Shown: one piece after another, positions 2,228 through 21,943 of the stretch
How positions within the stretch are numbered: position 1 is the first letter of the stretch
Layout: each line of letters opens with the position of its first letter
Source of the DNA: a virus
IMG/VR virus record: IMGVR_UViG_3300029448_000356
Span: 1 to 26,616 of that record
Strand: one strand, 5' to 3'
Length of the DNA: 26,616 nucleotides
Notes under the pieces: generated by a model
The model's database searches: none
Told to the model about the DNA's origin: nothing
Seen by the model: the letters and a program-made list of their open reading frames with translations, nothing else
Translations under genes and position numbers: made by a program

Positions 2228-2298
2228 AATACGTAATACAATACGTAACTATAATACGTATATGTTGTTTAAGAGTGTAATACGTAACTATAATACGT
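2228..2298. repeat. Iteron-like array of five AATACGT repeats
   Basis: AATACGT occurs at 2228, 2240, 2253, 2279 and 2292, with start-to-start distances of 12, 13, 26 and 13 nt, so four copies keep a 13-bp phase. The block AATACGTAACTATAATACGT is an exact 20-bp direct repeat (2240-2259 and 2279-2298). The last copy continues into ACGTTATATA (2295-2304), the motif found before the structural genes. The array fills most of the 122-nt gap between the holin and ninG. It could be a replication origin with iterons or a cluster of operator sites controlling the early genes. Confidence 0.75.
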
Positions 2299-2339
2299 TA
2301 TATAGGCGAAGTTATATTTTTTTTTTGTAACTTACAAGT

Positions 2340-3633: not shown

Positions 3634-4563
3634 ATGCTTATAAACTATTCAGATCATATAAACAAATTAAACGACTTCAGACAAGGTAAAACTCGTGAAG
3701 CGTTAAAGCTCGGACATAAAGAGATAGACAGCTCGTTTAGGTTTGTTGCAGGTAATATGAATTTTATCTTAGGACACAACAACGTAGGTAAAACACACTT
3801 TACGTTTTATCTTATGTTGCTTTACTCACTTAAACACAATATTAAATGGTTAGTATTTTCGAGTGAAAATGATCCTGTACAATTAATTAAAAAGCTAATA
3901 GAATTTATAGAGGGTAAGCCAATAAACAAAATAGAAGAAAAAGATTACGAAGAATCAAAAGACTTTGTATATAATCATTTTAAGTTTGTTGACATTAACA
4001 GACAATATACCTATAAACAACTTTTAGACTTAGCCGAGAAAGTAAAGGAGGCTTGGGATTACGATGGTTTACTTATTGATCCTATAAACTCTTTAAAGAA
4101 AGATTTAAAAAACACTAACGGTTACGAGTACAATTATGTACAACTGACTGACATACGAATCTTTTGTAAAAAATATAACATTTCTACTTGGATATGCGCC
4201 CACGCAGTGACCGAAGCCCTGCGCCGTAAGCACGGAGCTAATCACGAATATAGTGGAATGACTCCTCCTCCTACAATAGGAGATAGTGAGGGTGGTGCAG
4301 TAAACGGAAATCGTTGTGATGACTTTTTAATTGTGCATCGGTATATAGCTTCAAAAGATGCTTGGATGTACACAAGGCTTTACGTTGCTAAGGTAAAAGA
4401 AATGAGTTTAGGATATAAACCTACAAGCCACGAATCTCCTATATTATTTAAGTCAATACTTAATAACGTAGGATTTCAAATAGGTGCAAAAAATTTAATA
4501 AAGTATAGAACTAAGAAACAATTAACCATTGACAACACTTCAAAAAATAGCACAAAAGCATAA
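3634..4563 (+). CDS. RecA-fold ATPase, DnaB-like replicative helicase
   Basis: 309 residues with a RecA/DnaB-type core. Walker A is GHNNVGKT (47-54). Walker B is in DYDGLLIDPINSL (Asp149). ICAHAVTEA (around His190) corresponds to the sensor-like H motif of DnaB/Twinkle-type helicases. There is no DnaB N-terminal primase-binding domain and no Toprim or primase domain, so it is a minimal helicase or a RecA-like recombinase. Its position after two ssDNA-binding proteins supports a replication role. No DNA polymerase or primase is visible in the window, so host replication enzymes are probably needed. The start lies directly behind a terminator, leaving no room for a leader with a ribosome site other than the hairpin itself. 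Confidence 0.78.
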   Translation: MLINYSDHINKLNDFRQGKTREALKLGHKEIDSSFRFVAGNMNFILGHNNVGKTHFTFYLMLLYSLKHNIKWLVFSSENDPVQLIKKLIEFIEGKPINKIEEKDYEESKDFVYNHFKFVDINRQYTYKQLLDLAEKVKEAWDYDGLLIDPINSLKKDLKNTNGYEYNYVQLTDIRIFCKKYNISTWICAHAVTEALRRKHGANHEYSGMTPPPTIGDSEGGAVNGNRCDDFLIVHRYIASKDAWMYTRLYVAKVKEMSLGYKPTSHESPILFKSILNNVGFQIGAKNLIKYRTKKQLTIDNTSKNSTKA

Positions 4564-5023
4564 TGATTGGGTAAGAATTGTTAAGAGCTTTGGATGTGAG
4601 GGAGACAAGTGCGAGGACATCGTGCAAGAGATGTATATAAAAATACATACATTAATTGTTAAGGGAATAGATATAAGCTATGAAGATGATATAAACCACT
4701 TCTACATATACAGAATGCTTAGAAGCCTATTTATAGATTTATGTCGCAAAGAAGCGAAGATTACAAAAGTAAACGTAGACTACTTAGAAAAGTTTGTAGA
4801 GGAGGAAGAAGTAAAAGAATACAAAGACATAGAGGGTAAGATGAAAGAGTTAGACACTTTGCTTGATAAAGTCTATTGGTATGATAAGAAAGTTTTTGAC
4901 CTGATCTCTAATGGAATGAGCATAGCTGAATTATCTAAGAAAACAAACATAAGTTATTACTCGTTATATAATACATACAAGAACGTAAAGACATTAATTA
5001 AAGAAAATATAGAATGGGATTAG
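4529..5023 (+). CDS. Sigma-70/ECF-like RNA polymerase sigma factor
   Basis: 164 residues. Residues 11-75 resemble sigma region 2 (CEDIVQEMYIKIH, then FYIYRMLRSLFIDLCRKEAK). Residues 118-160 resemble region 4 with a helix-turn-helix (KVFDLISNGMSIAELSKKT, then NISYYSLYNTYKNVKTLI). The middle linker is acidic. The start is TTG at 4529, since the only in-frame ATG (4634) would remove half of region 2; this makes the gene overlap the helicase by 35 nt. It may redirect host RNA polymerase to phage promoters such as the ACGTTAT motif before structural genes. An alternative is a sigma-like DNA-binding regulator that does not bind polymerase. Confidence 0.75.
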   Translation: MTTLQKIAQKHNDWVRIVKSFGCEGDKCEDIVQEMYIKIHTLIVKGIDISYEDDINHFYIYRMLRSLFIDLCRKEAKITKVNVDYLEKFVEEEEVKEYKDIEGKMKELDTLLDKVYWYDKKVFDLISNGMSIAELSKKTNISYYSLYNTYKNVKTLIKENIEWD

Positions 5024-8285: not shown

Positions 8286-8721
8286 GGAAGCAAATAAAAT
8301 AGCAAAACACATTGTAGATATATCAGGAATCGATGTATTTAAAAACACAAGGAAAAGAGAATATGTAGAGATGAGGTCTTTGCTTACGTTTATGTTGAGG
8401 CATCATTGCGATATGACCTTTTACGATATAAGAGACTTCTACGAATCTAAAGGAAAGCATTACGATCACGCTACAGCTATATATAGTTTAAATGCATTTG
8501 AGATGCACAGAAGATACAATCCTAAAATAGATAAGTATTTTGACATAGCACTTCTCAGACTAAGAAACAAATCAAAATTAAGACGAGCATTAATAAACCA
8601 CATAATAGACTACACTAAATCAAAGGACTTAAAGAAGCTCCTTAAAATAGTAGATACATTACCCTTAAAAGATATAGATGGAAAAGAACAAACAAAAGAG
8701 AAAACAGATACCCCTGTATAA
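8278..8721 (+). CDS. DnaA domain IV-like DNA-binding protein, possible replication initiator
   Basis: 147 residues. Residues about 26-75 resemble the DNA-binding domain IV of DnaA: REYVEMRSLLTFMLRHHCDM, TFYDIRDFYE, then HYDHATAIYSLNAFE. The last element is close to the DnaA signature, in which DHTTV-type residues contact the DnaA box. No AAA+ ATPase domain is present, so it would be a stand-alone origin- or operator-binding module. The C-terminus is basic helical, then polar (KEQTKEKTDTPV). It overlaps the next gene by 44 nt. A natural candidate target is the repeat array at 2228-2298, which is inference. Confidence 0.6.
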   Translation: MNKEANKIAKHIVDISGIDVFKNTRKREYVEMRSLLTFMLRHHCDMTFYDIRDFYESKGKHYDHATAIYSLNAFEMHRRYNPKIDKYFDIALLRLRNKSKLRRALINHIIDYTKSKDLKKLLKIVDTLPLKDIDGKEQTKEKTDTPV

Positions 8722-9040
8722 AGGACTTATAAAATACTTTCCTGATGCACTATGCGAAGTAGCAAGAGTAAGCTACATAGGAAGTAAACAACATCATCCT
8801 GACAAAGAAATACATTGGGATAGAGAAAAAAGCTCAGACGATCTTGATGCACTTATGCGACACCTAATGGAAAATGGTATGCACGACATAGATGGAGTAA
8901 GACACTCTGCAAAGATTGCTTGGAGAGCATTAGCACACCTACAAAAAGAAATAGAGGGAGACAGAGGCGAACAATGGTACATAGACCAATACAATCGTAA
9001 CAGACTACCACACGACCAAATAATATCAGGTACAGAATGA
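8678..9040 (+). CDS. DUF5664-like nucleotide hydrolase (dATP/dGTP diphosphohydrolase N-terminal family)
   Basis: 120 residues. The pattern is that of the DUF5664 family, helical proteins related to MazG-type pyrophosphohydrolases and linked in some phages to purine nucleotide pools: LIKYFPDALCEVARVSYIGS, then SSDDLDALMRHLMENGMHDID and RHSAKIAWRALAHLQKEI. Conserved-looking Asp/His residues (DDLDALMRH, RHSAKIAWRALAH) could bind metal. It may adjust dNTP pools or remove modified nucleotides during phage DNA synthesis. It ends ATGA with the methyltransferase start, so the two are coupled. The activity is family inference only. Confidence 0.65.
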   Translation: MEKNKQKRKQIPLYKGLIKYFPDALCEVARVSYIGSKQHHPDKEIHWDREKSSDDLDALMRHLMENGMHDIDGVRHSAKIAWRALAHLQKEIEGDRGEQWYIDQYNRNRLPHDQIISGTE

Positions 9041-9621
9041 AAATACTAAACTTATATTCAGGTATAGGGGGTAATAGACATCTTTGGGGTGATGAACACG
9101 AAATTACAGCTATTGAGATTAACCCTGAAATTTCAGCAATATACAAAGAGAAGTTTCCAAATGATGTAGTTATAAATACAGATGCACACTTTTACTTATT
9201 ACATCACTTTCAAGACTTTGATTTTATTTGGTCAAGTCCACCTTGTCCAAGTCATAGTAGATTATGCTACTCACAGAAAGAAAAGAAATATATAGACTTA
9301 GCACTATATCAACAAATAATACTTTTAAAATCTTGGTTTAAGGGTAAATGGGTTATAGAGAATGTAGTACCTTATTATGATTATCTTATCAACCCAAGTG
9401 TAGTAATAGGTAGACATCCTTATTGGTGTAATTTTGAAGTTCCAACTCTACCAATAAAAAACATAGATATATCTCGTTCAACAGCAGATGAACTATCTGA
9501 ATATTTAGGCATACCTAAACCAAGATACAAATCAAGATTATTATTAAGAAATTGTGTAGAGCCAAAGATAGGGTTACATTTTCTTAAACATAGCGCTAAT
9601 AAACAAACAGAATTATTTTGA
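9037..9621 (+). CDS. DNA (cytosine-5)-methyltransferase, compact
   Basis: 194 residues. Motifs in order: SAM-binding motif I LNLYSGIGGNRHLW (4-17), motif II-like ITAIEINPE, motif IV SSPPCPSHSR with catalytic Cys70, motif VI WVIENV (105-110) and a motif VIII-like RYKSRLLLRN near 173. It is much shorter than free-standing C5 methyltransferases and lacks a normal target-recognition domain, as in other mini-Dcm phage enzymes. It may protect phage DNA from host restriction. The site cannot be read from the sequence. It is not next to the MjaI-like nuclease, so pairing as a restriction-modification system is not supported by position. Confidence 0.8.
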   Translation: MKILNLYSGIGGNRHLWGDEHEITAIEINPEISAIYKEKFPNDVVINTDAHFYLLHHFQDFDFIWSSPPCPSHSRLCYSQKEKKYIDLALYQQIILLKSWFKGKWVIENVVPYYDYLINPSVVIGRHPYWCNFEVPTLPIKNIDISRSTADELSEYLGIPKPRYKSRLLLRNCVEPKIGLHFLKHSANKQTELF

Positions 9622-9737
9622 AACAAAAGAAGTTTACACAAATACAAAGAATAAAAAGATTAGAGAATATAGTAAGCCAAATCTATATGAGTGTAGAGGT
9701 AATAAAACAACGGCTTGACAAAAAAGAAGAAAAGTAA
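9618..9737 (+). CDS. Possible small helical protein (TTG start)
   Basis: 39 residues from TTG 9618, overlapping the methyltransferase TGA. The sequence is lysine/glutamine-rich and helical (RIKRLENIVSQIYMSVEVIK, then QRLDKKEEK). It has Leu/Ile/Val at heptad-like spacing, consistent with a short coiled coil. It ends where the ACGTTAT motif begins (9737). No family is known, and the non-ATG start lowers confidence. Confidence 0.4.
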   Translation: MKQKKFTQIQRIKRLENIVSQIYMSVEVIKQRLDKKEEK

Positions 9738-9750
9738 CGTTATATATTTG
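9737..9750 (+). promoter_or_regulatory. ACGTTAT motif before small terminase
   Basis: ACGTTATATATTTG: the ACGTTAT seen before other structural genes merges with TATATTTG (9743-9750), a perfect Bacteroidetes -7 element TAnnTTTG. The ATG of the terminase small subunit is at 9771, leaving a leader of about 15 nt, unlike the 6-nt spacing of the other four sites. Confidence 0.6.
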
Positions 9751-9770
9751 ATTAATCAAAGTTTTTCAAA

Positions 9771-11239: not shown

Positions 11240-11260
11240 TTTCTAAAAGTTTTATTTTTT

Positions 11261-11276
11261 ACGTTATATATATATG
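11261..11276 (+). promoter_or_regulatory. ACGTTAT-N6-ATG motif before tail genes
   Basis: ACGTTAT at 11261-11267, six bases, then the ATG at 11274. It is preceded by a T-rich stretch and lies in the only gap between terL and the tail chaperone. It shares exact spacing with sites at 18004, 19298 and 21583. Confidence 0.65.
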
Positions 11277-11924
11277 AAAGTAGAGGTTTATATTCCTGAT
11301 ACTCTTAGCGAAATCACATTAGACAAGTATCAAAGGTATTTAAAAATACAAGAGAACAACGAAGATGAGAACTTCTTAGCTATTAAAATGATAGAAATAT
11401 TTTGTGGACTAAGAGGCGATACGATAATGGCAATGAAAGCTAAAAGCATCAAAGACATAACACTTATACTTACACAAATGTTTAATGAGAAACCTCAGCT
11501 TGTAAAAGAGTTTAAGATGAATGGTATGACTTATGGTTTTATTCCTAAGTTAGAAGATATGTCTTTTGGAGAGTATATTGACCTTGATACTTACATAGGA
11601 GATATGGATAACATACACAGAGCTATGAATGTTTTATACAGACCTATCAAACAAAAGTATCAAGACAAATATCTAATAGAAGATTATACAGGAGATGATC
11701 CTGAGAAAATGAAAGATATGCCAATGGATGCCGTACTTAGTTCGATACTTTTTTTTTACAATTTAGGGATGGACTTGTCGAAAACTATGCTGAACTCTTT
11801 GGAGGACAACAAGGAAATCAACTTAGCTCAGTATCTAACTTCGGAAGAAAATGGGGATGGTATCAATCACTTTTCGGACTCTCTCAAGGAGATATTAGAA
11901 GATTTGAAGATATCACTAAACTAA
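11274..11924 (+). CDS. Tail assembly chaperone, frame-0 product (lambda gpG analogue)
   Basis: 216 residues, acidic, mostly helical, located between terminase and tail genes. The first 161 residues are shared with a longer product made by -1 frameshifting at 11750-11756 (see those entries). By analogy with lambda gpG/gpGT, both products would bind the tape measure protein and recruit tail tube subunits, without being part of the virion. Unlike lambda G, the unshifted frame continues 55 codons beyond the slip site, ending in a plausible helical sequence (SDSLKEILEDLKISLN), so about 165 nt may code in two frames. The ACGTTAT motif lies 6 nt before the start. Confidence 0.75.
   Translation: MKVEVYIPDTLSEITLDKYQRYLKIQENNEDENFLAIKMIEIFCGLRGDTIMAMKAKSIKDITLILTQMFNEKPQLVKEFKMNGMTYGFIPKLEDMSFGEYIDLDTYIGDMDNIHRAMNVLYRPIKQKYQDKYLIEDYTGDDPEKMKDMPMDAVLSSILFFYNLGMDLSKTMLNSLEDNKEINLAQYLTSEENGDGINHFSDSLKEILEDLKISLN
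11750..11756 (+). promoter_or_regulatory. -1 frameshift site T TTT TTT
   Basis: A run of nine T (11749-11757) is read as CTT TTT TTT TAC in frame 0. T TTT TTT (11750-11756) is a perfect X XXY YYZ heptamer, allowing both tRNAs to re-pair after a -1 slip. The -1 frame has a TAG only five codons upstream of the slip point and no ATG, GTG or TTG before well into the fused segment, so it can be expressed only by slippage. Confidence 0.85.
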
Positions 11925-12013
11925 ACATACATACCTGTCTTTACGCTTTAAGTTTTATGAAAGAGAAAGCAGAGGTAGAATCAAAGAATATAAAAAGTAA
12001 ATTCAATAGATGA
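11756..12013 (+). CDS. Tail assembly chaperone -1 frame extension (lambda T-like part of GT)
   Basis: 85 codons in the -1 frame from TTA 11756 to TGA 12011, fused to the first 161 residues of the upstream frame to give about 246 residues. The extension contains FGRKWGWYQSLFGLSQGDIR and FEDITKLNIHTCLYALSFMK, then EKAEVESKNIKSKF. This W-G-W-Y...L..GD...F..I..L.......L.F...K pattern resembles C-terminal parts of tail assembly chaperones in Bacteroidetes phages. It overlaps frame 0 to 11924, then runs alone through what would otherwise be an 85-nt gap. Its TGA overlaps the next ATG (ATGA). Confidence 0.85.
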   Translation, partial: LQFRDGLVENYAELFGGQQGNQLSSVSNFGRKWGWYQSLFGLSQGDIRRFEDITKLNIHTCLYALSFMKEKAEVESKNIKSKFNR

Positions 12014-12483
12014 GCAATCAAGGAGTAAGAGGCTATTACCAAATAACACAAACTATAAAGACTAATCTCTTAACAGATGAGAATGTCAATACTGTAACGA
12101 CAGGCGATATATTTGACATAGACCTATCTAAACAAACAATCTTTCCTTTAAGTCATATCATAGTAAACAACGTAACTATCCAAGAACAAGTCCTCAACTT
12201 TAACATTACAGTAATGTCTATGGATATAGTAGATCAGTCTAAAGACGAAACAACAGACGTATTTGTAGGCAACAACAACGAGCAAGATATACTAAACACA
12301 CAATTAGCTGTAGCAAATAAATTAGTAGGGTTACTAAGCAAAGGCGATCTATACAGAGACAAATACCAATTAGATGGAGATGCTTCTTGTGAGTTCTTTT
12401 ATGAAAGGTTTGAAAATCAAATGGCAGGTGTAGCTTGTACGTTTAATGTATTAATTGCAAATGATATAAACGTATGCAGTTAA
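12010..12483 (+). CDS. Putative tail terminator/neck protein
   Basis: 157 residues, coupled to the frameshifted chaperone by ATGA. The sequence (YYQITQTIKTNLLTDENVNTV, QTIFPLSHIIVNN, FNITVMSMDIVDQSK, NNNEQDILNTQLAVANKLVG) mixes an N-terminal helix and strands, as in tail-terminator or minor-capsid-like proteins of siphoviruses. I recall this family next to HK97 gp10-like proteins in flavobacterial phages. A role at the head-tail joint or as the tail terminator is inferred from context. It overlaps the next gene by 10 nt. Confidence 0.5.
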   Translation: MSNQGVRGYYQITQTIKTNLLTDENVNTVTTGDIFDIDLSKQTIFPLSHIIVNNVTIQEQVLNFNITVMSMDIVDQSKDETTDVFVGNNNEQDILNTQLAVANKLVGLLSKGDLYRDKYQLDGDASCEFFYERFENQMAGVACTFNVLIANDINVCS

Positions 12484-13007
12484 AAGAAACAAGGGAAGCG
12501 TTAAATAGGTTTGGAAAGTTTGTAATACAACAAGCAAGATCAAGACTAACTAAAGGAGTTAAAAGAGGGGGTAAAAGGTTTTCACAAAACGATACAAAAA
12601 AACTATATAACAGTTTAGAGTATTTACCTTTTAACAGAAGTGGCTCTATAGGTGTAGAGTTTTATATGGAAGATTATGGTAAGTTTCAAGATAAAGGGGT
12701 TAAGGGTACGAAGTCAAACTACTTAGAAAACAAGAACTCTCCTTTTTCATATAAATCAAGTATGCCGAATCCTGAAATATTTGAGGGTTATATAAAGAGA
12801 AAAGGCATAAAAGGTAGAGATAAGAAAGGTAGATTTATAACAAACAAATCTTTACAATTTTTAATTGCAAGAAGCATATTTCAAAAAGGTATAAAAGCAA
12901 GTATGTTTTTCACTAAGCCTTTTAACCAAGCATACGAGAAACTACCAAAAGATTTACAAGAAAATTTTGTAAAAGATATAGAAAACATAATTTTTGACAA
13001 TGGCTAA
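12474..13007 (+). CDS. HK97 gp10-like head-tail joining protein
   Basis: 177 residues, basic. The N-terminal helix (MQLKETREALNRFGKFVIQQ) followed by RLTKGVKRGGKRFSQNDTKK and VEFYMEDYGKFQDKGVKGTK resembles HK97 gp10-type and tail-completion proteins, where the Y-x-x-FxDxG element is typical. The C-terminal half is helical and lysine-rich. It should connect capsid and tail. Overlaps on both sides fit a coupled structural operon. Confidence 0.55.
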   Translation: MQLKETREALNRFGKFVIQQARSRLTKGVKRGGKRFSQNDTKKLYNSLEYLPFNRSGSIGVEFYMEDYGKFQDKGVKGTKSNYLENKNSPFSYKSSMPNPEIFEGYIKRKGIKGRDKKGRFITNKSLQFLIARSIFQKGIKASMFFTKPFNQAYEKLPKDLQENFVKDIENIIFDNG

Positions 13008-13959
13008 TATACTACTAAGAAGTCCTAAATATTTAACAATAACAACAGGCTCACATCTGTCAGCTAAGTTAGAGCTTACTATAGATGGTACATTACGTTA
13101 CACTATTATAAAAAATGCTGTAAGTAACAGAACTGTATTTGAACTATCAACTTTATGTAAAGATTATTACGATCCTGATTATGGTGGAACTTCAGGCTCT
13201 AACTTTGATACAGTGGCTATATCAGCAACTTGGTATGCTTATGATGCAGTAGATGGAGGAGGTAGTCAATTAGCAACATCAACTGTAACTCACACAGGAT
13301 TTTATGGATATACTTATTTTTCTCAAGGTGTCGGTGGTAATGACATTGATCCTGATGATTATGAATTAACAAACACAGGCGATTCAAGAATTGTATACTT
13401 ACCTGAAAACACAGCAAGTTTTGTATGGGATATGAACTCAGGCTCGACCTCTAAAACAACAATAAACACCACAGCAACAAGTGTTACCTCAGCATCAGGT
13501 CAATACACTTGGACAATACAAAGAATCTGTAGTGCTAAATATAGTCCTGTACAAATGAGATTTATAAATAAGAATGGCGCACCCCAAGACCTTTATTTCT
13601 TTTTAAAGTCATCCGAAAGTATGAATACTAAAAGCGAAACATTTAAGAGAAACATATTTAAGTATGCTACATCTAATTATGAAGAAGAAGATCATCAAAC
13701 AACAGTATTCAACAAAACAGGCAAGAAGCGATATACATTAAACACAGATTACATAGCAGAAGCATACAACGAAGTAATAGAAGATGTTTTATTAAGTGAA
13801 TATGTATGGATAAAATATGAATCTACTGATGGAAACAGATGGAGACCTGTAATCGTTAACACAAGCTCTTTACTTAAAAAGACATCATTAAACGATAAGT
13901 TAATTCAATATACATTAGAGGTAGAAGAAGCTAACGATATTATCAATAATATAGTATGA
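13000..13959 (+). CDS. Tail-associated structural protein
   Basis: 319 residues from ATG 13000. A TTG at 12994 would add two residues, but the ATG is preferred. The sequence is strand-rich with many Thr/Ser/Gly/Tyr, as in tail or baseplate beta-sandwich proteins (LRSPKYLTITTGSHLSAKLEL, then later QYTWTIQRICSAKYSPVQMR, KKRYTLNTDYIAEAYNEVIE, LIQYTLEVEEAND). No catalytic motif is seen. It is coupled to the large protein downstream by ATGA. A distal-tail or minor tail role is inferred from position before the 698-residue protein and the tape measure. Confidence 0.5.
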   Translation: MANILLRSPKYLTITTGSHLSAKLELTIDGTLRYTIIKNAVSNRTVFELSTLCKDYYDPDYGGTSGSNFDTVAISATWYAYDAVDGGGSQLATSTVTHTGFYGYTYFSQGVGGNDIDPDDYELTNTGDSRIVYLPENTASFVWDMNSGSTSKTTINTTATSVTSASGQYTWTIQRICSAKYSPVQMRFINKNGAPQDLYFFLKSSESMNTKSETFKRNIFKYATSNYEEEDHQTTVFNKTGKKRYTLNTDYIAEAYNEVIEDVLLSEYVWIKYESTDGNRWRPVIVNTSSLLKKTSLNDKLIQYTLEVEEANDIINNIV

Positions 13960-16052
13960 GGCGTGAAGTACAATTATATATACAAGATACTCGAGTTGAT
14001 TTATTCCAAGATGAAAGCATTAGTATCACAGATTCAATACAAAATGTTTCAGACATAAGTAAGGTCTTTACACCTTTCTCTAAGCAGTTTAACCTACCTG
14101 CATCTCAAGTAAACAACAAGCTGTTTAAACACTACTACAACTTTGACATACAAGGTGGCTTTGATGCAAGATTTAGAGTAGATGCAAGAATCGAAATAAA
14201 CCACGTTCCTTTTAGATCAGGACAAATAAGATTAGATGGTGTAAGTATGAAAGACAATCTACCTCACACTTATAAAGTTGTGTTCTTTGGAAAACCAAGT
14301 GATATAAAAGATATATTTGGAGATGAGGACTTAAGTTCTTTAAATCCTTTGTCAACTTATGATATTAAAAGCGATACAGTAACAGCAGATGTCCAAAATG
14401 CATTTAAAACAGGTTTACAAAGTACAGGCGTTAATGCTACGCTTACAGAAAATCGAAATATTGTAGTCCCTTTAATAAGTTTAGAAAATTATTATTCGTA
14501 TGACACCCCAAGTACAACTGAATTAGATAATGTTAATTGGAATAATTTGCGAAAAGATTTAAAACCTGCTATAAAACTAAAAAGAGTTATAGAAGCCATC
14601 GAAACTCAATACAATATAGATTTTAATATGACAGATGAGGGTAGTATTAAAACATTTTTTGGTAGTGATATGTTTGATGAGCTTTACCTTTGGTTGCATA
14701 GGGAAAAGATCTCATACAATAACTTGAACAGCACAACAAAACACTTTGGTATAAATTATACTTCTTTAGGAGTTAAAAAAACCCTTAATGATTACACATA
14801 TTTAGGTGGCTCAGGAGATGTTTTATCAGGGGGTAAACTAACAATCAACGAGGGCGAATCTTACACCCTAAGATTTAGATTTATTGCAAATTATGCTAAT
14901 GCACCTATAGAAATAATATCAAGAGATAAAACGACAAATGAATTATTAGGTGTTCAAGAAAGGACATCAAGTACAAGTGTTATGGTTGTTAGGTTTGAAT
15001 CTTTACAAAGTGGTAATTTGTCATCAAGAGTATTTGACCCTGAAATAAGGTTTAACAACAACACAAGTCAAGCTATAAGTTTTTCTGCACTTAACACTTT
15101 AGCTAACTTTGGTTTACAAATAGACAAAACTGTCAATGGTGTAATAACACAACACTATTACGGCAACAATGCTTTTCAATTAGCGTATATGGTTTTTATA
15201 CAAGATTATTTACCTAAAATGAAAGTAATAGATTTTGTAACAGGCTTATTTAAGATGTTTAATTTAGTTGCTTACACTAAAAAAGGTAGTAGTACAATTT
15301 ACATACAAACCTTTGATGATTATATGACACTTGGAACATCAAGAGATATAACAAAATACATAGACATCAATGAAAGCACTATTGATCGCCCTGTACCTTA
15401 CAACCAAATAAACTTTAAATACTCATCTCCTGTTACTCAAACAAGCCTAAGATTTATAAATGACTATGCTCAAGTATTTGGTGATTTAAACTATTCAGCT
15501 CCTGAAAAATATGATGGACAAGCATTTAGTATAGATGTACCTTTTGAAAGAAGTGTACTTATAAATTTACGAGATAATTCAGGGGCTTTAACAAATAACG
15601 TAGAGGCTTGGTGGGTAGATGATGCAGGAAAAACAGCTTTAGGTAAGCCTTATATATTTTTTAATAGGGTTGTAGATTCAAGTAGTAATACAGTAACCTC
15701 ATCAAATTATACAAGTTATAATGCACCATCAAACGTATCAAGTGATGAAAACCACACTTTAAACTTTGGTGCTGAATATGATGAGTTTAACGGAGATGTA
15801 AACACTAATAGTTTGTTTAGTAGGTTTTATGAGCAGTACATTATACAGACATTTAATCAAAATGGTAGGATAATAAAAGTATCAGCTAACCTGCCTGTAA
15901 GTTTTGTTTTAAATTATAGCGTAAATGACGTTATAGTTATCAATGCACAAGAGTATTATATTAACGCAATACAGACAGATATAACAACAGGCAAATCACA
16001 ATTAGAACTAATCGTAAAAAAAGTAGCTTACACAAATAGCGTATTAACATAA
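13956..16052 (+). CDS. Large tail tip/baseplate-hub-like protein
   Basis: 698 residues. The N-terminal 130 residues are well ordered and beta-rich: REVQLYIQDTRVDLFQDES, then SDISKVFTPFSKQFNLPAS, RSGQIRLDGVSMKDNLPHTY and KVVFFGKPSDIKDIFGD. The middle (about 170-400) is more variable, and a long C-terminal part includes PVPYNQINFKYSSP and a final beta-region. It is in the position and size range of a siphovirus tail-tip or hub protein. I recall similar proteins before the tape measure in Bacteroidetes phages. No lysozyme or peptidase motif is visible. Its TAA overlaps the next small gene (TAATG). Confidence 0.55.
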   Translation: MRREVQLYIQDTRVDLFQDESISITDSIQNVSDISKVFTPFSKQFNLPASQVNNKLFKHYYNFDIQGGFDARFRVDARIEINHVPFRSGQIRLDGVSMKDNLPHTYKVVFFGKPSDIKDIFGDEDLSSLNPLSTYDIKSDTVTADVQNAFKTGLQSTGVNATLTENRNIVVPLISLENYYSYDTPSTTELDNVNWNNLRKDLKPAIKLKRVIEAIETQYNIDFNMTDEGSIKTFFGSDMFDELYLWLHREKISYNNLNSTTKHFGINYTSLGVKKTLNDYTYLGGSGDVLSGGKLTINEGESYTLRFRFIANYANAPIEIISRDKTTNELLGVQERTSSTSVMVVRFESLQSGNLSSRVFDPEIRFNNNTSQAISFSALNTLANFGLQIDKTVNGVITQHYYGNNAFQLAYMVFIQDYLPKMKVIDFVTGLFKMFNLVAYTKKGSSTIYIQTFDDYMTLGTSRDITKYIDINESTIDRPVPYNQINFKYSSPVTQTSLRFINDYAQVFGDLNYSAPEKYDGQAFSIDVPFERSVLINLRDNSGALTNNVEAWWVDDAGKTALGKPYIFFNRVVDSSSNTVTSSNYTSYNAPSNVSSDENHTLNFGAEYDEFNGDVNTNSLFSRFYEQYIIQTFNQNGRIIKVSANLPVSFVLNYSVNDVIVINAQEYYINAIQTDITTGKSQLELIVKKVAYTNSVLT

Positions 16053-16192
16053 TGATAAAAAACATATTAGATTTATTGCCTTATGCAAAAGGCGAAACAG
16101 AAAACATAAGAATAGCTAAGGGAAAATACAAATACCCTGAAAGCATTAAAGAAGCGTATAACGATTTTAAAAAACAAATATGGGACAAGTAG
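16052..16192 (+). CDS. Small basic protein before tape measure
   Basis: 46 residues, start inside TAATG, and 13-nt overlap with the tape measure gene. The sequence is basic and helical: NILDLLPYAKGETENIRIAK, then KYKYPESIKEAYNDFKKQIW. The perfect tiling with both neighbours supports a real gene. The function is not recognised. By position it may assist tail assembly. Confidence 0.6.
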   Translation: MIKNILDLLPYAKGETENIRIAKGKYKYPESIKEAYNDFKKQIWDK

Positions 16193-17985
16193 TAGAAGCA
16201 GTATTAAAGTTAGATTCTAAAGATGCACAAAAAGATATAGAAAAAGTAAATCAAGGTTTACAAGAAACTAACGAAACTTTAGAAGATACAGGCAAAACAG
16301 CTAAAAAATCAGAAAAAGGTTTAAGTACATTAAGCAAAGGTATTAAAGGGATAGGTACTGCATTTAAAGCAGCAGGTATCGGTGCAGTAGTAGCTTTGTT
16401 TGGAGCATTAGCAGCAGCACTATCTAAAAACCAACAAGTAATGGATACTGTAGCTGTTGTTACAGGGACAATCTCGCAAGTATTTACAGAAATAGGAAAC
16501 GTATTAGTAAACGTATATAATAGCGTATCTTCTACGACAGAAAACTTTGATGCACTTGGTAGGGTAGTAAGCAATGTATTTAAGATTGCTATAGCACCAT
16601 TTAAATTAGCTATTGATGGTTTGGCATTAGGTTTTTATAATGCACAGTTAGCTTGGGAGCAATCGTTTCTTGGTAGTGGAGATACAGAAAAGATAGAAGC
16701 TCTTAACTCTAAAATAGATGAAACAAAACAAAGTCTTTTAGACACAGCAGTCGGAGTTGCAGAAGCAGGATCAGCAATAGCAACAGATTTTACAGAAGCA
16801 GTAAGCGAGGTAACAAATATAGGATCACAAGTAGTAGAGGGATTAAGTGAGATAAGTGTTAAGTCAATAGCAGAAAACGTAAAAGCAAACCAACAACTTA
16901 AAAAATCAGCAGATGAAGCAAGAATAATAAATCAAGGTTTAATAGAGCAATTTGACAGACAAGCTGAACAACAAAGACAAATAAGAGACAATGATCTTAA
17001 AAGTATAGATGATAGAATAGCTGCTAATAATAAATTAAAAGCAACACTTGAGGAACAAGAGACATCTATGTTAGCTAATGCTGATTTAATGATAAAACAA
17101 GCAGAGTCGCAATTTAAATTATCAGGTCTTGAAGAAGATAGGTTAGCATTATTAGAGGCAAGAAACGAAAAGAAAGCAATAGAAGCACAGATAGAGGGTT
17201 TTATGTCAGAGCAAGAATCTAACAGAGTTGCGCTATTAAAAGAAAAAATAGAATTAGAATTATCTAACGATGAGGCTACAGCATTAAGGCAAAATGAGCA
17301 GAGAAACTTCAATACAGAAATGGAGCAAAACGAAGTTACAAGAATGCAAATGATGTTAGAAAATCTTGAAACTGAAAGAGATGTTGAAACAGAAAGATTA
17401 AAAATTAAAAGAGATTCATACGAAGAAGGAACACAAGCATTTATAGATGCAAACAATGAGTTATTAGATTATCAACAAGCTAACGCAAACCAACAAGAGA
17501 AAATAGAAAAAGATTTAGGTAAAGCAAAAGAGGGGCAACTTAAAGAAACATTAGGAAACATAGCAAGTATTGTAGGTCAAAACTCTAAGTTTGGAAAAGC
17601 CATAGCAGTAGTACAAGCAATACAAGATACTTTTGCAGGTGCAAACAAAGCCTTAGCGCAAGGAGGTATTTTTGGTTTTGTCGGAGCAGCAGCAGTTATA
17701 GCAGCAGGTATAGCGAATGTAAAAAATATTACATCATCTAAAACACCAAAACCTCCTGCAAGTTTAGGAGCAAGATCAACAGGAGGCGAATCTACACCTG
17801 CTATTCCTGCATCAACTACAGCATCATTACCTCCCTCATTTAGCACAGTAGGTACAAGTGGTACAAATCAATTAGCAGACTTATTAGGTAATCAACCTCC
17901 ACCAAGAGCATTTGTCGTTTCAGGAGATGTGAGTACAGCACAAGAGTTAGATAGAAATATTGTAAGTAGTGCAAGTTTAGGATAA
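16180..17985 (+). CDS. Tape measure protein
   Basis: 601 residues. The N-terminal part (1-55) is a charged helix. A glycine/alanine-rich hydrophobic segment follows (about 62-81, FKAAGIGAVVALFGALAAAL), as in most tape measures. The centre (about 240-460) is a long alpha-helical coiled coil rich in Glu, Lys, Gln and Asn. Near 465-515 there is a second hydrophobic/Ala-rich stretch (GKAIAVVQAIQDTFAG, FGFVGAAAVIAAGIANVK), then a Pro/Ser/Thr-rich tail. With the usual ratio of about 1.5 angstrom per residue, tail length would be near 90 nm. No peptidase or lysozyme domain is seen. Confidence 0.88.
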   Translation: MGQVVEAVLKLDSKDAQKDIEKVNQGLQETNETLEDTGKTAKKSEKGLSTLSKGIKGIGTAFKAAGIGAVVALFGALAAALSKNQQVMDTVAVVTGTISQVFTEIGNVLVNVYNSVSSTTENFDALGRVVSNVFKIAIAPFKLAIDGLALGFYNAQLAWEQSFLGSGDTEKIEALNSKIDETKQSLLDTAVGVAEAGSAIATDFTEAVSEVTNIGSQVVEGLSEISVKSIAENVKANQQLKKSADEARIINQGLIEQFDRQAEQQRQIRDNDLKSIDDRIAANNKLKATLEEQETSMLANADLMIKQAESQFKLSGLEEDRLALLEARNEKKAIEAQIEGFMSEQESNRVALLKEKIELELSNDEATALRQNEQRNFNTEMEQNEVTRMQMMLENLETERDVETERLKIKRDSYEEGTQAFIDANNELLDYQQANANQQEKIEKDLGKAKEGQLKETLGNIASIVGQNSKFGKAIAVVQAIQDTFAGANKALAQGGIFGFVGAAAVIAAGIANVKNITSSKTPKPPASLGARSTGGESTPAIPASTTASLPPSFSTVGTSGTNQLADLLGNQPPPRAFVVSGDVSTAQELDRNIVSSASLG

Positions 17986-18003
17986 ACAAAAAAATAAATT
18001 AAT

Positions 18004-18019
18004 ACGTTATACATATATG
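18004..18019 (+). promoter_or_regulatory. ACGTTAT-N6-ATG motif before protease
   Basis: ACGTTAT at 18004-18010, six bases, then ATG at 18017, within the 31-nt gap after the tape measure. The preceding AAT (TAATACGTTATA) also matches the last iteron at 2291-2302. Confidence 0.65.
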
Positions 18020-18622
18020 AGAATAGTTGAATTAATCTTAGGCGATGATGAGTTAACAGGAATAGAAGCTATTTCAGTAGTTGAGAATCCTGCAATAGAA
18101 GAAGATTTTATTGCACTTAAAAGCGAAGAAATAAAACTTGCTGAAGTAGATAAAGAAAAACGTATTCTAATGGGTGCTTTACTAATTCCTAACAAACCAA
18201 TCTATCGTAAAAAAGGCGAAGAAGAATATTACATATATTTCTCAAGAGACACAGTAATCAAAGCATCACAGCTTTATTTAATGAATGGTAATCAATCTAA
18301 AGCCACATTAGAACACCAACATACGATCAACGGACTAACATTAGTAGAATCTTGGTTAGTAGAAGATGAGGTACACGATAAATCTCGTAAGTATGGGTTG
18401 AATGTTCCTGTAGGTACTTGGATGGGTGCTGTTAAAGTAAACAACGATGAAATATGGAACAACTTTGTTAAAACAGGTAAGGTTAAAGGTTTCTCAATAG
18501 AGGGTTACTTCGCAGACAAAATGGAAAGACCTAAAGAGCCTGTAAACGACTTTGAGGAAGAAGCAGAGGAAAAATTATCTGTCATTAGAGGTATTATTAA
18601 AGATGGCGAGAAACATAGTTAG
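18017..18622 (+). CDS. Prohead serine protease, XkdF/S78_2-like
   Basis: 201 residues. The pattern is that of XkdF-type phage proteases: EAISVVENPAIEEDF (17-31), IYFSRDTVIKASQLYLMNG, ATLEHQHTINGLTLVESWLV with the likely catalytic His100 or His102, and GKVKGFSIEGYF with the likely nucleophile Ser160. The C-terminal tail is acidic. It should cleave the scaffold and capsid precursor during head maturation. It is located two small genes plus one coiled-coil gene upstream of the scaffold and capsid, and carries an ACGTTAT motif 6 nt before its start. Confidence 0.85.
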   Translation: MRIVELILGDDELTGIEAISVVENPAIEEDFIALKSEEIKLAEVDKEKRILMGALLIPNKPIYRKKGEEEYYIYFSRDTVIKASQLYLMNGNQSKATLEHQHTINGLTLVESWLVEDEVHDKSRKYGLNVPVGTWMGAVKVNNDEIWNNFVKTGKVKGFSIEGYFADKMERPKEPVNDFEEEAEEKLSVIRGIIKDGEKHS

Positions 18623-18722
18623 TGTTTATATAAAACCAAAAAGAAAATCACATCCACACAGCAAAAATGCGAGTGTAGGACAAAACAAATATAAAAAACC
18701 CTATAGAGGTCAAGGCAGATGA
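18603..18722 (+). CDS. Small very basic phage protein
   Basis: 39 residues, starting 20 nt inside the protease gene. It is strongly basic: IKPKRKSHPHSKNASVGQNK, ending YKKPYRGQGR. I recognise the K.YKK.YRGQG ending as a recurrent small protein of Bacteroidetes phages with no known function. It could bind nucleic acid. It overlaps the next gene by 4 nt (ATGA). Confidence 0.7.
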   Translation: MARNIVSVYIKPKRKSHPHSKNASVGQNKYKKPYRGQGR

Positions 18723-18850
18723 AAAAATTTGAAACACCAAGTAAGACAAGTCCAAGAGGAGGACGTAGAGGTTGTTTATGTAAAGATGAAACCTATTCAG
18801 TAAAGTGCTGTAAGGGAAATATAATAAATCAAGGAATCGGTAAAATATAA
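18719..18850 (+). CDS. Small cysteine-rich phage protein
   Basis: 43 residues, start in ATGA with the previous gene. GGRRGCLCKDETYSVKCCKG has four cysteines in a CxC...CC arrangement, and the protein ends NQGIGKI. This pattern (GCLC....TYS.KCC.G....QGIG) is familiar from many Bacteroidetes phages. Its conservation between protease and capsid genes suggests a small virion or head-assembly protein. The cysteines could bind a metal or form disulfides. Confidence 0.7.
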   Translation: MKKFETPSKTSPRGGRRGCLCKDETYSVKCCKGNIINQGIGKI

Positions 18851-18853
18851 GTT

Positions 18854-19270
18854 ATGAGAAAAAAAGCAATGAATTATGTAGCACAAGTTACAGAACTATC
18901 TACAGAAAAAGTAGAGTTAGCAATTTTAGATGATATACAAAAACAAATAAATGTTTTAAGTAAAGGACTTGCAGATATGCAAAAAAAATCATCTGCACAG
19001 TTGAAAGCACTTGACAATGCTTCATCTGCAATTTCTAAATTAAAAAGGGCAAATTCAGATGCAAGTAGATCAAGTGTGCAAAATGAAACTAATAAAACTT
19101 TAAACCTTATGGCAAGAGCTGAAGAAGCTGCAAAAGAATTAGGAATGAGTCCTACTAATGTAAAGGGTTTAAGAGAGTTAGAAAAATTGTTAGGCGAAAT
19201 CAAAAAAAGAGCAGAATTTATTGAAAGAATAAAACAAGACTCAAAAGTTTTTGGAGATAGAGCAATATAA
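18854..19270 (+). CDS. Coiled-coil protein of the head region
   Basis: 138 residues, nearly all helical, with heptad-like patterns (ILDDIQKQINVLSKGLADMQ and RELEKLLGEIKKRAEFIERI). Basic and acidic residues are balanced. No domain is recognised. It lies between the protease and the scaffold genes, so a role in head assembly, or as an internal head protein, is inferred. Confidence 0.6.
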   Translation: MRKKAMNYVAQVTELSTEKVELAILDDIQKQINVLSKGLADMQKKSSAQLKALDNASSAISKLKRANSDASRSSVQNETNKTLNLMARAEEAAKELGMSPTNVKGLRELEKLLGEIKKRAEFIERIKQDSKVFGDRAI

Positions 19271-19297
19271 ACACAAAATGCAAATATAAATTTTAAC

Positions 19298-19313
19298 ACG
19301 TTATAGTAATATG
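19298..19313 (+). promoter_or_regulatory. ACGTTAT-N6-ATG motif before scaffold
   Basis: ACGTTAT at 19298-19304, six bases, then ATG 19311. The 40-nt gap upstream has no terminator. Confidence 0.65.
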
Positions 19314-19904
19314 AAATCAACAGAAATCTTAAACAAAATCAAAACTTTCTTAGGAGAGGATCAAATAGAGGAAACTCAAGTTGAAGAAACTCAATTAGAA
19401 GAACAAGTAGAAGAATCTACTGAGGAAGTCAAGTTAGCACAAGCTACACTTGAAAATGGTACAATCTTAGAAGCTGAGGCTTTTGAAGCAGGAAACGAAA
19501 TCTTTATTGTTACTGAAGATGAAAGAGTAGCAGTACCTGTAGGCGAATATCAAATGGAAGATGGTCAAATGCTCGTAGTAAGCGAGGAGGGAATCATCGG
19601 AGAGATTAAGTCAGCAGAGGCTGAAGAAGAAGTGGAAGCTGAAGAAGAAATAGAGGCTTATGTATCAAAAGAAGAATTTAACTCTGCCATTGATGAGATC
19701 AAAGGTATGATAAACGAGCTAAAGGAAGTCAAAGAAGAAATGGCTGAAGCAGAGGAGCAAGTAAAACAAGAACTTAGCGAAACTCCTGCTGTAGAGCCTA
19801 TCTCACACAATCCTGAAGCTAAACAAGAATTTAAAGTAAATTTTGGTCAAAACAGACCTGAGACTGCTTTAGATAGAGTAATGAAAAAATTAACCAATAA
19901 TTAA
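19311..19904 (+). CDS. Putative capsid scaffolding protein
   Basis: 197 residues, extremely acidic, with Glu-rich low-complexity segments (23-40 and 104-116). A central beta-like portion (LENGTILEAEAFEAGNEIFI, then VAVPVGEYQMEDGQMLVVSE) is followed by a coiled coil (FNSAIDEIKGMINELKEVKE) and a distinct C-terminus (FKVNFGQNRPETALDRVMKK) that could contact the capsid protein. The position just upstream of the major capsid gene and the composition fit a scaffold removed by the protease. The GNEIFIVTEDER..PVGEY part resembles a known domain of Bacteroidetes phage scaffolds, from memory. Confidence 0.65.
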   Translation: MKSTEILNKIKTFLGEDQIEETQVEETQLEEQVEESTEEVKLAQATLENGTILEAEAFEAGNEIFIVTEDERVAVPVGEYQMEDGQMLVVSEEGIIGEIKSAEAEEEVEAEEEIEAYVSKEEFNSAIDEIKGMINELKEVKEEMAEAEEQVKQELSETPAVEPISHNPEAKQEFKVNFGQNRPETALDRVMKKLTNN

Positions 19905-19915
19905 AATTAAATAAA

Positions 19916-20839
19916 ATGCCAAATCCAACAATTACAGCAAGTAGTTATGCAGGAGAGTTTGCAGGAAAGTATATTGCTGCATCTTTATTGACAGCAAAGA
20001 CCTTAGATGATGCTGCTATTACTATTATGCCAAACATTAAGTACAAAGCTGCTATGAAAGTAGGAGCATTTTCAAATTTAGTAAGAAGTGCTGACTGTGA
20101 CTTCGATTCTACGACTTCAGGTCTTACACTTACTGAAAAAGTATTAACACCAACTGAATTACAGGTAAACCTACAGATTTGTAAAAAAGAATTACATTCT
20201 GATTGGGAAGCTGCACAAATGGGATTCTCTGCTTTTGATAACCTACCACCACTATTCTCAGATTTCGTTATCGCAAGAGTAGCTGCTGAGGTTGCAAGTG
20301 CAACTGAAACTTCTATATGGGCAGGCGCAGCAGGAGAAGGAAACTTTGATGGCTTAAAAACTTTAGCTGCTGCTGACGGAACTGTAGTAGACGTTGCAAA
20401 AACAACTGTAACTTCTGCAAACGTAGTTGCTCAATTAGGAGCTATCGTTGATGCAATTCCAAGTGCGGTTTACGGAGCAGATGACCTTATTATTTATGTA
20501 TCATCAAACATCTATAGAGCTTACATTAGAGCTTTAGGTGGATTTGGTGCAGCAGGTTTAGGTGCAGCAGGTTACGACAACAAAGGTAACAACCAATCAT
20601 TAGGAGGTTTATTCTTTGATGGTATCAAGATTTACCCAACATCAGGTTTAGCTGACAACAATGCAATGGCAGCAAGGTCAAGTAACTTATTCTTCGGAAC
20701 AGGTCTATTAAACGACAGAAACGAAGTAAAAGTAATTGATATGTCAGATATCGATGGATCACAAAACGTAAGAGTAGTAATGAGATATACAGCAGGATGC
20801 CAAATCGGTGTAGGTGCTGACGTAGTTCTTTACTCTTAA
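19916..20839 (+). CDS. Major capsid protein
   Basis: 307 residues. It is beta/alpha mixed, Ala/Gly-rich and slightly acidic, with better-optimised codons than the neighbours. The N-terminus is ITASSYAGEFAGKYIAASLL; the centre has ELHSDWEAAQMGFSAFDNLP and SDFVIARVAAEVASATETSI; the C-terminus is VRVVMRYTAGCQIGVGADVV. This agrees with HK97-fold capsid proteins of Bacteroidetes phages as I recall them. It follows the scaffold by 11 nt and is followed by a strong terminator, as expected for the most abundant late protein. Confidence 0.85.
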   Translation: MPNPTITASSYAGEFAGKYIAASLLTAKTLDDAAITIMPNIKYKAAMKVGAFSNLVRSADCDFDSTTSGLTLTEKVLTPTELQVNLQICKKELHSDWEAAQMGFSAFDNLPPLFSDFVIARVAAEVASATETSIWAGAAGEGNFDGLKTLAAADGTVVDVAKTTVTSANVVAQLGAIVDAIPSAVYGADDLIIYVSSNIYRAYIRALGGFGAAGLGAAGYDNKGNNQSLGGLFFDGIKIYPTSGLADNNAMAARSSNLFFGTGLLNDRNEVKVIDMSDIDGSQNVRVVMRYTAGCQIGVGADVVLYS

Positions 20840-20852
20840 TAAATTAACATAT

Positions 20853-20880
20853 AAAGGGGTAGTTAACCCTACCCTTTTTT
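20853..20880 (+). terminator. Terminator after major capsid gene
   Basis: GGGTAG (20857-20862) pairs with CTACCC (20869-20874) around TTAACC. Extra A-T and G-T pairs outside the core are followed by a run of six T. Confidence 0.88.
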
Positions 20881-20894
20881 AATAACTAATAATT

Positions 20895-21473
20895 ATGCCT
20901 TGTACAATAACTCAGGGACGTGCAGTCCCTTGCAAATCAGGAGTAGGTGGTCTTAAGACTGTTTACTTTGCAGATTTCGGTACTCTTGGTGCAGCAGCAG
21001 ATAGTGGATCACAAGATCCTTTTTCTGCTACTTTTAATGGTCAGATTGATACTTTTGCTTCTTTAACAGGATCAGCACCATCTGCGAGTGGTGTTCTAAA
21101 AAAGTTTGACATTAAAGGTAATTCATCTTTAGAAACTGCAATTAACAGCTCAAGAGAAAACGGAACTACATTTTACGAATCAACACTAAACTTAACATTA
21201 ACATTCCTTGAAAAAGCAACACAAGAAGAAGTTAAATTAATCTCACACGCAAGACCACACGTTTTTGTAGAAGATTATAATGGTAATTACTTTGTAATGG
21301 GCTTAGAACACGGAGCAGAGGTTACAGGTGGATCGATTGTAAGTGGAGCTGCTATGGGAGACCTAAGTGGATTTACTTTAACTTTAGTATCACAAGAAAG
21401 AATACCGCCACCATTTGTATTAAGTACAGAGGTTGTGAATAATTCTGATACTGATCAAATAACACCGAATTAA
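20895..21473 (+). CDS. Putative major tail tube protein
   Basis: 192 residues. It begins with MPCTITQGRAVPCKSGVGGL and is strand-rich, with KKFDIKGNSSLETAINSSRE, GTTFYESTLNLTLTFLEKAT, GNYFVMGLEHGAEVTGGSIV and GDLSGFTLTLVSQERIPPPF. The order of segments (beta-sandwich with a GLEHGAEVTGG turn and a final FTLTLVSQE strand) resembles siphovirus tail tube proteins. Its position between capsid and portal, rather than beside the tape measure, is unusual, so a capsid decoration protein is the main alternative. It stands in its own unit between two terminators, which fits an abundant product. Confidence 0.55.
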   Translation: MPCTITQGRAVPCKSGVGGLKTVYFADFGTLGAAADSGSQDPFSATFNGQIDTFASLTGSAPSASGVLKKFDIKGNSSLETAINSSRENGTTFYESTLNLTLTFLEKATQEEVKLISHARPHVFVEDYNGNYFVMGLEHGAEVTGGSIVSGAAMGDLSGFTLTLVSQERIPPPFVLSTEVVNNSDTDQITPN

Positions 21474-21530
21474 AAATAATTTTTGTATATTTATAAAAGT
21501 TTTCATCAATTATATTTAGTTTTTTGAATT

Positions 21531-21560
21531 AAGGGGGAGTTTTCGGACTCCTCTTTTTTT
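21531..21560 (+). terminator. Terminator after tail-tube-like gene
   Basis: GGGGAGT (21534-21540) pairs with ACTCCTC (21547-21553) around TTTCGG, with one G-T pair, extended by A-T pairs and followed by seven T. The 57 nt between the stop and the hairpin are AT-rich and hold no gene. Confidence 0.88.
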
Positions 21561-21582
21561 ATACACAAAATCTAAAGTTTGT

Positions 21583-21598
21583 ACGTTATATAAGTATG
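21583..21598 (+). promoter_or_regulatory. ACGTTAT-N6-ATG motif before portal operon
   Basis: ACGTTAT at 21583-21589, six bases, then ATG 21596. It comes 22 nt after a terminator, so transcription must restart here. This makes it the best evidence that the motif is a promoter. Confidence 0.72.
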
Positions 21599-21943
21599 AT
21601 ACACTTAACGACATCTGCATCAGCTCAAACTTTAAAAGTAATACCAAGAAGTTACGCTTCAAGTGTTAGTATGATTCTAAGAGACGATTCAACAAACACC
21701 TCAACGACATACACAGTAAGCACTACAACAGACAAAAACTATTTAGTAGTATCAAAAGCATTAAGTCCTGTACTTGTAGAGGGTAGATTCTACGACCTAA
21801 CTCTTAAAGAGGGAAGTAGTGTAATATATAAAGATAAAGTTTTCTGTACTAATCAAACTGTTTCGAGTTATTCAGTAAATAATGCAGAATATACTGTACC
21901 AACAGGAAACGATGTCTACGATAATGATTATATTGTAATATGA
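21596..21943 (+). CDS. Small structural protein upstream of portal
   Basis: 115 residues, mostly short beta-strands (MIHLTTSASAQTLKVIPRSY, NTSTTYTVSTTTDKNYLVVS, LVEGRFYDLTLKEGSSVIYK). It is Thr/Ser/Tyr-rich, with an acidic end (YDNDYIVI). I recall such proteins next to the portal gene of Bacteroidetes phages with no known function. It may be a capsid decoration or a small virion protein. It is coupled to the portal gene by ATGA. Confidence 0.6.
   Translation: MIHLTTSASAQTLKVIPRSYASSVSMILRDDSTNTSTTYTVSTTTDKNYLVVSKALSPVLVEGRFYDLTLKEGSSVIYKDKVFCTNQTVSSYSVNNAEYTVPTGNDVYDNDYIVI

Follow-up and report, generated by a model that had tools for sequence, protein, structure and literature searches.

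A candidate late promoter joined to the start codon, and its likely phage-encoded ECF-type sigma factor, in relatives of Nonlabens phages P12024L/S

Introduction

Phage sigma factors such as T4 gp55 and SPO1 gp28 and gp33-34 redirect the host RNA polymerase to late promoters, and the late mRNAs of both phages carry leaders. The sigma-like protein described here differs from these in being ECF-like, with 164 aa and regions 2 and 4, and the promoters attributed to it abut start codons. Most middle and late mRNAs of Thermus phage phiYS40 lack a leader, according to a review (PMC3594737, citing Sevostyanova 2007). That phage, however, represents another phylum and another phage family, whereas the system considered here is a two-box promoter that varies with a phage-encoded sigma factor. 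No phage sigma factor is known to have been assigned in phiYS40. In Deinococcus-Thermus, a -10 element at a fixed distance from the open reading frame gives leaderless mRNA (PMC12340547). There the arrangement is widespread in the hosts and uses a classical -10 sequence, whereas the element studied here is virus-specific, has a -35 box, and has a different -10 sequence. Few leaderless genes occur in those Bacteroidetes that have been characterised (PMC3160421, PMC6847099), a point against leaderless mRNAs here. Leaderless phage mRNAs, start-adjacent -10 elements, and phage late sigma factors are each known; for their combination, with a joint switch of sigma factor and promoter, no earlier description was found in the literature searched.

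The window—the whole stretch of DNA analysed, a 26.6-kb virus record (IMG/VR IMGVR_UViG_3300029448_000356)—has as its closest cultured phages the Nonlabens phages P12024L/S (Inhavirus), with a terminase 57% identical. In these phages CGTTA-N7-ATG occurs at six sites, each with C at -12, and A-rich boxes of the ACAAA type lie upstream of them; a sigma-like gene of their own (gp35 or gp33) stands upstream of the terminase gene. The sigma-like gene and the sites with C at -12 are shared with the window; however, the -10 element reads CGTTA[ATC]TAnnnn, the sigma-like protein is only 21% identical, and the tail-chaperone ortholog lacks a site. In the literature searched, neither the promoters of P12024 nor late sigma factors of Bacteroidetes phages were found to have been described before. 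The viruses of the family to which the window belongs apparently infect flavobacteria, an inference. The terminase of OQ791282.1, 'Shigella phage Henu10', was found at the same coordinates and identity as that of Riemerella phage vB_RanS_PT15, and its host label may be wrong.

The element is likely a late promoter of this phage family, read by the phages' own ECF-type sigma factor and giving leaderless structural mRNAs. Elements, spacing, conservation, and co-variation are read from sequence; it is inferred where transcription starts, that the sigma factor is active, that expression is late, that the mRNAs are translated leaderless, and what type of host is involved. In the proposed mechanism, the host RNA polymerase carrying the phage sigma factor would read a -35 box, [CT]AAAA[AT], and a -10 element, ACGTTATATA, the latter so placed that transcription would begin at the A of the ATG of the tail-chaperone, protease, scaffold, and portal-operon genes. 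The leader of these mRNAs would thus be 0 nt (1–4 nt in some relatives), and one sequence would both control the gene and fix the 5' end for translation without a Shine-Dalgarno sequence. The copy before the small terminase gene (terS) would be the same promoter, with a short leader carrying a palindrome (Table 1).

Copies of the element in the window

The late genes run from terS/terL to the portal gene, and the block upstream contains helicase-like, recombination, and sigma-like genes. Also in this block, positions 7449–8285 encode a protein with a MUG113/T5orf172 domain, a candidate GIY-YIG-type endonuclease. Positions 9037–9621 of the window encode a short C5 cytosine methylase-like protein, the match being confined to the N-terminal part of that family.

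The original prediction placed ACGTTAT on the plus strand at 2295, 9737, 11261, 15928, 18004, 19298, and 21583, and all seven coordinates are correct. Two further copies lie on the minus strand (4463 and 15595), both within coding DNA, bringing both strands together to 9 copies against 3.24 expected. All seven plus-strand copies, and neither of the two on the minus strand, read ACGTTATA. ACGTTAT followed after six nucleotides by ATG occurs exactly four times, as had been claimed, and on the plus strand only; the expectation is 0.07, with at most one in 100 dinucleotide shuffles. The gene labels given to these four sites also stand: the tail-chaperone product (11274) matches phrog_32199, a PHROG with no function named, 18017 encodes a head maturation protease and 19311 a scaffold-like protein, and 21596 is the first gene of the portal operon. 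The copy at 15928 does lie within a coding region with no ATG at the right distance; as a promoter candidate, it was put down to chance.

Table 1. Predicted promoter elements and associated genes; coordinates are those of the window, except in the last row
Feature	Position	Strand	Remark
-10 element ACGTTATATA, tail-chaperone promoter	11261..11270	+	predicted start 11274 = A of ATG
-35-like box TAAAAG, tail-chaperone promoter	11244..11249	+	
Tail-chaperone-like gene, predicted leaderless	11274..11924	+	
-10 element, protease promoter	18004..18013	+	predicted start 18017 = A of ATG
-35-like box CAAAAA, protease promoter	17987..17992	+	
Head maturation protease gene, predicted leaderless	18017..18622	+	
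-10 element, scaffold promoter	19298..19307	+	predicted start 19311 = A of ATG
-35-like box CAAATA, scaffold promoter	19281..19286	+	
Scaffold-like gene, predicted leaderless	19311..19904	+	
-10 element, portal-operon promoter	21583..21592	+	predicted start 21596 = A of ATG
-35-like box CAAAAT, portal-operon promoter	21566..21571	+	
First gene of portal operon, predicted leaderless	21596..21943	+	
-10 element, terS promoter	9737..9746	+	predicted start 9750, leader ~21 nt
-35-like box CAAAAA, terS promoter	9719..9724	+	
Palindrome TTGATTAATCAA at predicted terS start	9748..9759	+	TTGAWTAAWCAA in relatives
ACGTTATATA copy upstream of NinG, end of repeat array	2295..2304	+	without clear -35 box
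ECF-type sigma factor, proposed promoter reader	4529..5023	+	
CGTTA-N7-ATG genes of P12024L (NC_018272)	179 (protease), 3031 (before portal), 5412, 24771, 26011, 27612		

The view that no -35-like element is shared proved wrong: a [CT]AAA(A/T) box precedes all four N6 sites, starting 30 nt before the A of the ATG at 4/4 of them; at the 9737 site, it starts 31 nt before the predicted transcription start. In the form [CT]AAAA[AT], the box lies about 12 nt upstream of the -10 motif. The gap of 12–13 nt between the box and CGTTAT is shorter than the usual -35/-10 gap, a point against the promoter reading.

The remaining copy, at 2295, is only a weak promoter candidate. Positions 2228–2301, between a holin-like gene and NinG, form an array in which AATACGTAACTAT-like units are followed at the end by ACGTTATATA, and the array is also present in a close relative (L009).

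Conservation in relatives and in blind scans

Relatives were sampled as 80 IMG/VR loci recruited by terL, together with the two Nonlabens phage genomes. In these related phages, ACGTTAT-N6-ATG recurs at the tail-chaperone, protease, and scaffold orthologs, the ATG after the motif being the conserved start of the orthologs. The heptamer occurs 200 times on the plus strand against 48 on the minus strand and is the most frequent one at the N6 offset; the next ATG lies at a spacing of exactly six in 57 cases on the plus strand and in none on the minus strand. It stands at N6 before 43 of the 68 tail-chaperone orthologs, and near misses mostly retain CGTTAT. Enrichment of k-mers across whole loci was also tried, and was rejected as swamped by coding-strand bias.

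A scan of 2.9 million viral contigs with the pattern ACGTTATATANNTATG, in which no gene served as reference, returned at least 137 sites. Among the sites listed, 107 directly precede orthologs of the four genes (56 tail-chaperone, 29 protease, 15 of the 21596 gene, and 7 scaffold), whereas a scrambled control pattern in viral contigs gave 0/120 at these genes. In bacterial genomes, a 19-letter version of the pattern matched 49 times, never at these genes and only at unrelated ones, and hence revealed neither an integrated relative nor a host. In at least ten relatives, a ParB-like gene that was not found in the window is a further target gene, lying directly downstream of the leaderless motif (for example, L186:2053, L216:846, and L243:1028).

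Spacing and initiator at the predicted start

Among the loci recruited by protein, motif and ATG are separated by six nucleotides in 44 unique sites and by 7–10 in a few, and no genuine spacing below six was found. Apparent shorter spacings were rejected as ATGs within open frames or, in L060, because an N6 ATG is available. This one-sidedness supports a promoter, since an ATG is possible at or after a transcription start but not before it. In the same loci, every N6 site has a T just before the ATG, compared with 38% at other starts, and this T-A is a predicted pyrimidine-purine initiator. If CGTTAT is the -10 element, the inferred transcription start is the A of the ATG; the mRNAs would then be leaderless, because transcription would begin at the start codon itself. 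Of two criteria for a leaderless gene, one is fulfilled, in that a -10-like element precedes the start codon at a constant distance, about 12 nt; the other, an mRNA 5' end at the start codon or a few nt from it, is a prediction. Loci from L167 onward were picked by a pattern with T at -1, and so a sequence logo of the leaderless and terS sites is biased at -1 and in its ATATA part. The comparison with 38% and the spacing and type counts from protein-recruited loci are free of this bias, except for a few clade-B sites in the T count.

The same sigma-dependent promoter might instead begin transcription a few nucleotides upstream and yield short leaders rather than leaderless mRNAs. This is unlikely but cannot be set aside, as start-site choice at real promoters varies by a few nucleotides, and terS and some sites of a sister lineage, clade B, do have leaders. 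Against it, the T-A step at +11/+12 is retained in 43/44 type-A N6 sites, and a purine occupies +12 in 96% of terS sites, where the ATG stands elsewhere; a purine there would fit a transcription start, as expected. Many clade-B tail-chaperone promoters (L087, L105, and L114) have a 12-nt leader rather than none, and leaderless and short-leader forms thus occur within one clade.

With conservation, fixed spacing, a co-moving -35 box, spacing confined to 6–10, a T-A initiator, and co-variation with the sigma factor (below), the candidate leaderless late promoter of the original prediction is supported, its 5' ends remaining inferred. The link to a sigma factor goes beyond that prediction.

The phage sigma factor and its co-variation with the promoter

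The proposed reader is predicted to be all-helical (AlphaFold2, mean pLDDT 79.7). It matches a PHROG annotated as sigma factor, and its profile matches are SigE and SigW. Against Pfam Sigma70 region 2 it scores 19.8 bits, short of the gathering score of 24, and it is therefore named ECF-like rather than filed as a member; its Nonlabens homolog passes with 25.2 bits. That homolog was recognised by position and Pfam, since tblastn of the window protein against cultured phages gave nothing at E 0.01. The top Foldseek matches of the model are CnrH, sigmaE, AlgU, SigK, and SigW (probability 0.99–1.00). The first ten matches have probabilities of 0.97–1.00, E of about 0.01, and a whole-chain TM of about 0.4, none reaching E 0.001, perhaps because the two domains are placed differently in the model. 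Among the criteria for an ECF sigma factor, that of architecture (regions 2 and 4 only, about 150–200 aa, and an ECF-like fold) is fulfilled, and that of the Pfam score is not.

In ECF sigma factors, region 2.4 reads the -10 element and region 4.2 the -35 element, and CGTTA is similar to the CGT core found in many -10 elements of ECF sigma factors. Both regions could be compared with their boxes in clade B, which comprises L072 and L086 together with 80 loci that the sigma factor of L086 recruited. Its -10 motif is (C)GTTTATATATTA, found at terS, the tail chaperone, and the 21596 ortholog; a blind scan with GTTTATATATTANTATG gave 118 sites, 52 of them before tail-chaperone and 52 before 21596 orthologs. 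Relative to the ATG, the -35 box starts at -31, with the same position and the same sequence as in type A. Clade-B sigma factors are 39–47% identical to that of the window, and most type-A ones 41–53%. Residues 65–74 (region 2.4), however, are 79% and 85% identical within the two types and 20% identical between them (10 residues), whereas residues 141–150 (the region 4.2 helix) are 89% identical between types. Region 2.4 has therefore switched and region 4.2 been kept, like the -10 and -35 boxes, as expected if this sigma factor reads both.

Among 70 scorable loci, the type-A sigma factor accompanies motif A in 26/26 and the type-B sigma factor motif B in 44/44. This co-variation rests on few independent switches and not on 70, because sigma factor and motif are both inherited and the loci are related. 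Copies that seemed to break the rule—motif B in L064, L071, L074, and L076, and motif A in L129—were rejected as coding copies inside NinG and tail-chaperone genes. On a terL tree, motif B is split between two groups, and the terminase of one of them is very distant; the motif thus follows the sigma factor and not the packaging genes.

That the protein directs RNA polymerase to these promoters is an inference without biochemistry, drawn from the sequences: region 2.4 changes together with the -10 box, and region 4.2 is conserved along with the -35 box. Because sigma activity is only inferred, and other possible DNA-binding proteins are encoded in the window (for example, at 8278–8721), the late promoter could instead be read by a host sigma factor aided by an activator from the phage, or by a different phage protein, the sigma-like protein doing something else. 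This is improbable: the host consensus, the Bacteroidetes housekeeping promoter TTTG/TAnnTTTG, is absent at all four N6 sites (a TATATTTG is overlapped by the terS copy alone), and such a scheme does not predict that regions 2.4 and 4.2 should track the -10 and -35 boxes separately.

The terS copy and translation initiation

The fixed distance between motif and ATG at most sites would also suit a translation-initiation signal that replaces the Shine-Dalgarno sequence, the mRNA promoter lying further upstream; flavobacterial initiation is known to depend on bases at -3, -6, -12, and -13 (PMC6847099). This alternative, raised in the original prediction, is very doubtful. The distance between the -35 box and CGTTAT is the same in 102 leaderless sites, counted without duplicates, as in 29 terS sites, but the ATG, at +12 in the leaderless set, lies 26–40 nt beyond the motif in the terS set. 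As the internal spacing of the two boxes is unchanged where the ATG is so far downstream, a promoter is indicated rather than a translation signal. Position -12 is C and not the favoured A, and A is almost never found at -12 to -10 of N6 sites; the A-rich region present at these phages' other genes, an initiation region known from Bacteroidetes genes (PMC6847099), is replaced. A translation signal also leaves unexplained the change of motif with sigma region 2.4, and the one-sided spacing speaks against it. Chance in an AT-rich genome (about 67% A+T here), which would yield such strings before ATG, can practically be discounted, being refuted by conservation, by four sites against 0.07 expected, and by the empty scrambled control.

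The palindromic element at the predicted terS start is kept in relatives of either motif type, and could act as an operator or as an element of the leader.

Significance for the phage family

It seems probable that a widespread and mostly uncultured group of phages uses its own ECF-type sigma factor with promoters joined to start codons, giving leaderless structural mRNAs, and that between sister lineages the -10 half of the system (sigma region 2.4 and promoter) has been switched and the -35 half kept; the sigma factor of one lineage may be unable to read the promoters of the other. If so, late transcript starts would be predicted to the nucleotide in two cultured phages and throughout a large group of viruses without cultured members, with the reader protein named. 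These natural sigma/promoter pairs, in which the -10 code differs and the -35 code is common, would be of use for understanding DNA recognition by small sigma factors and, in Bacteroidetes, for orthogonal expression. Viruses would, moreover, be shown to depend on leaderless mRNAs in a phylum where most of the bacteria's mRNAs carry a leader (PMC6847099).
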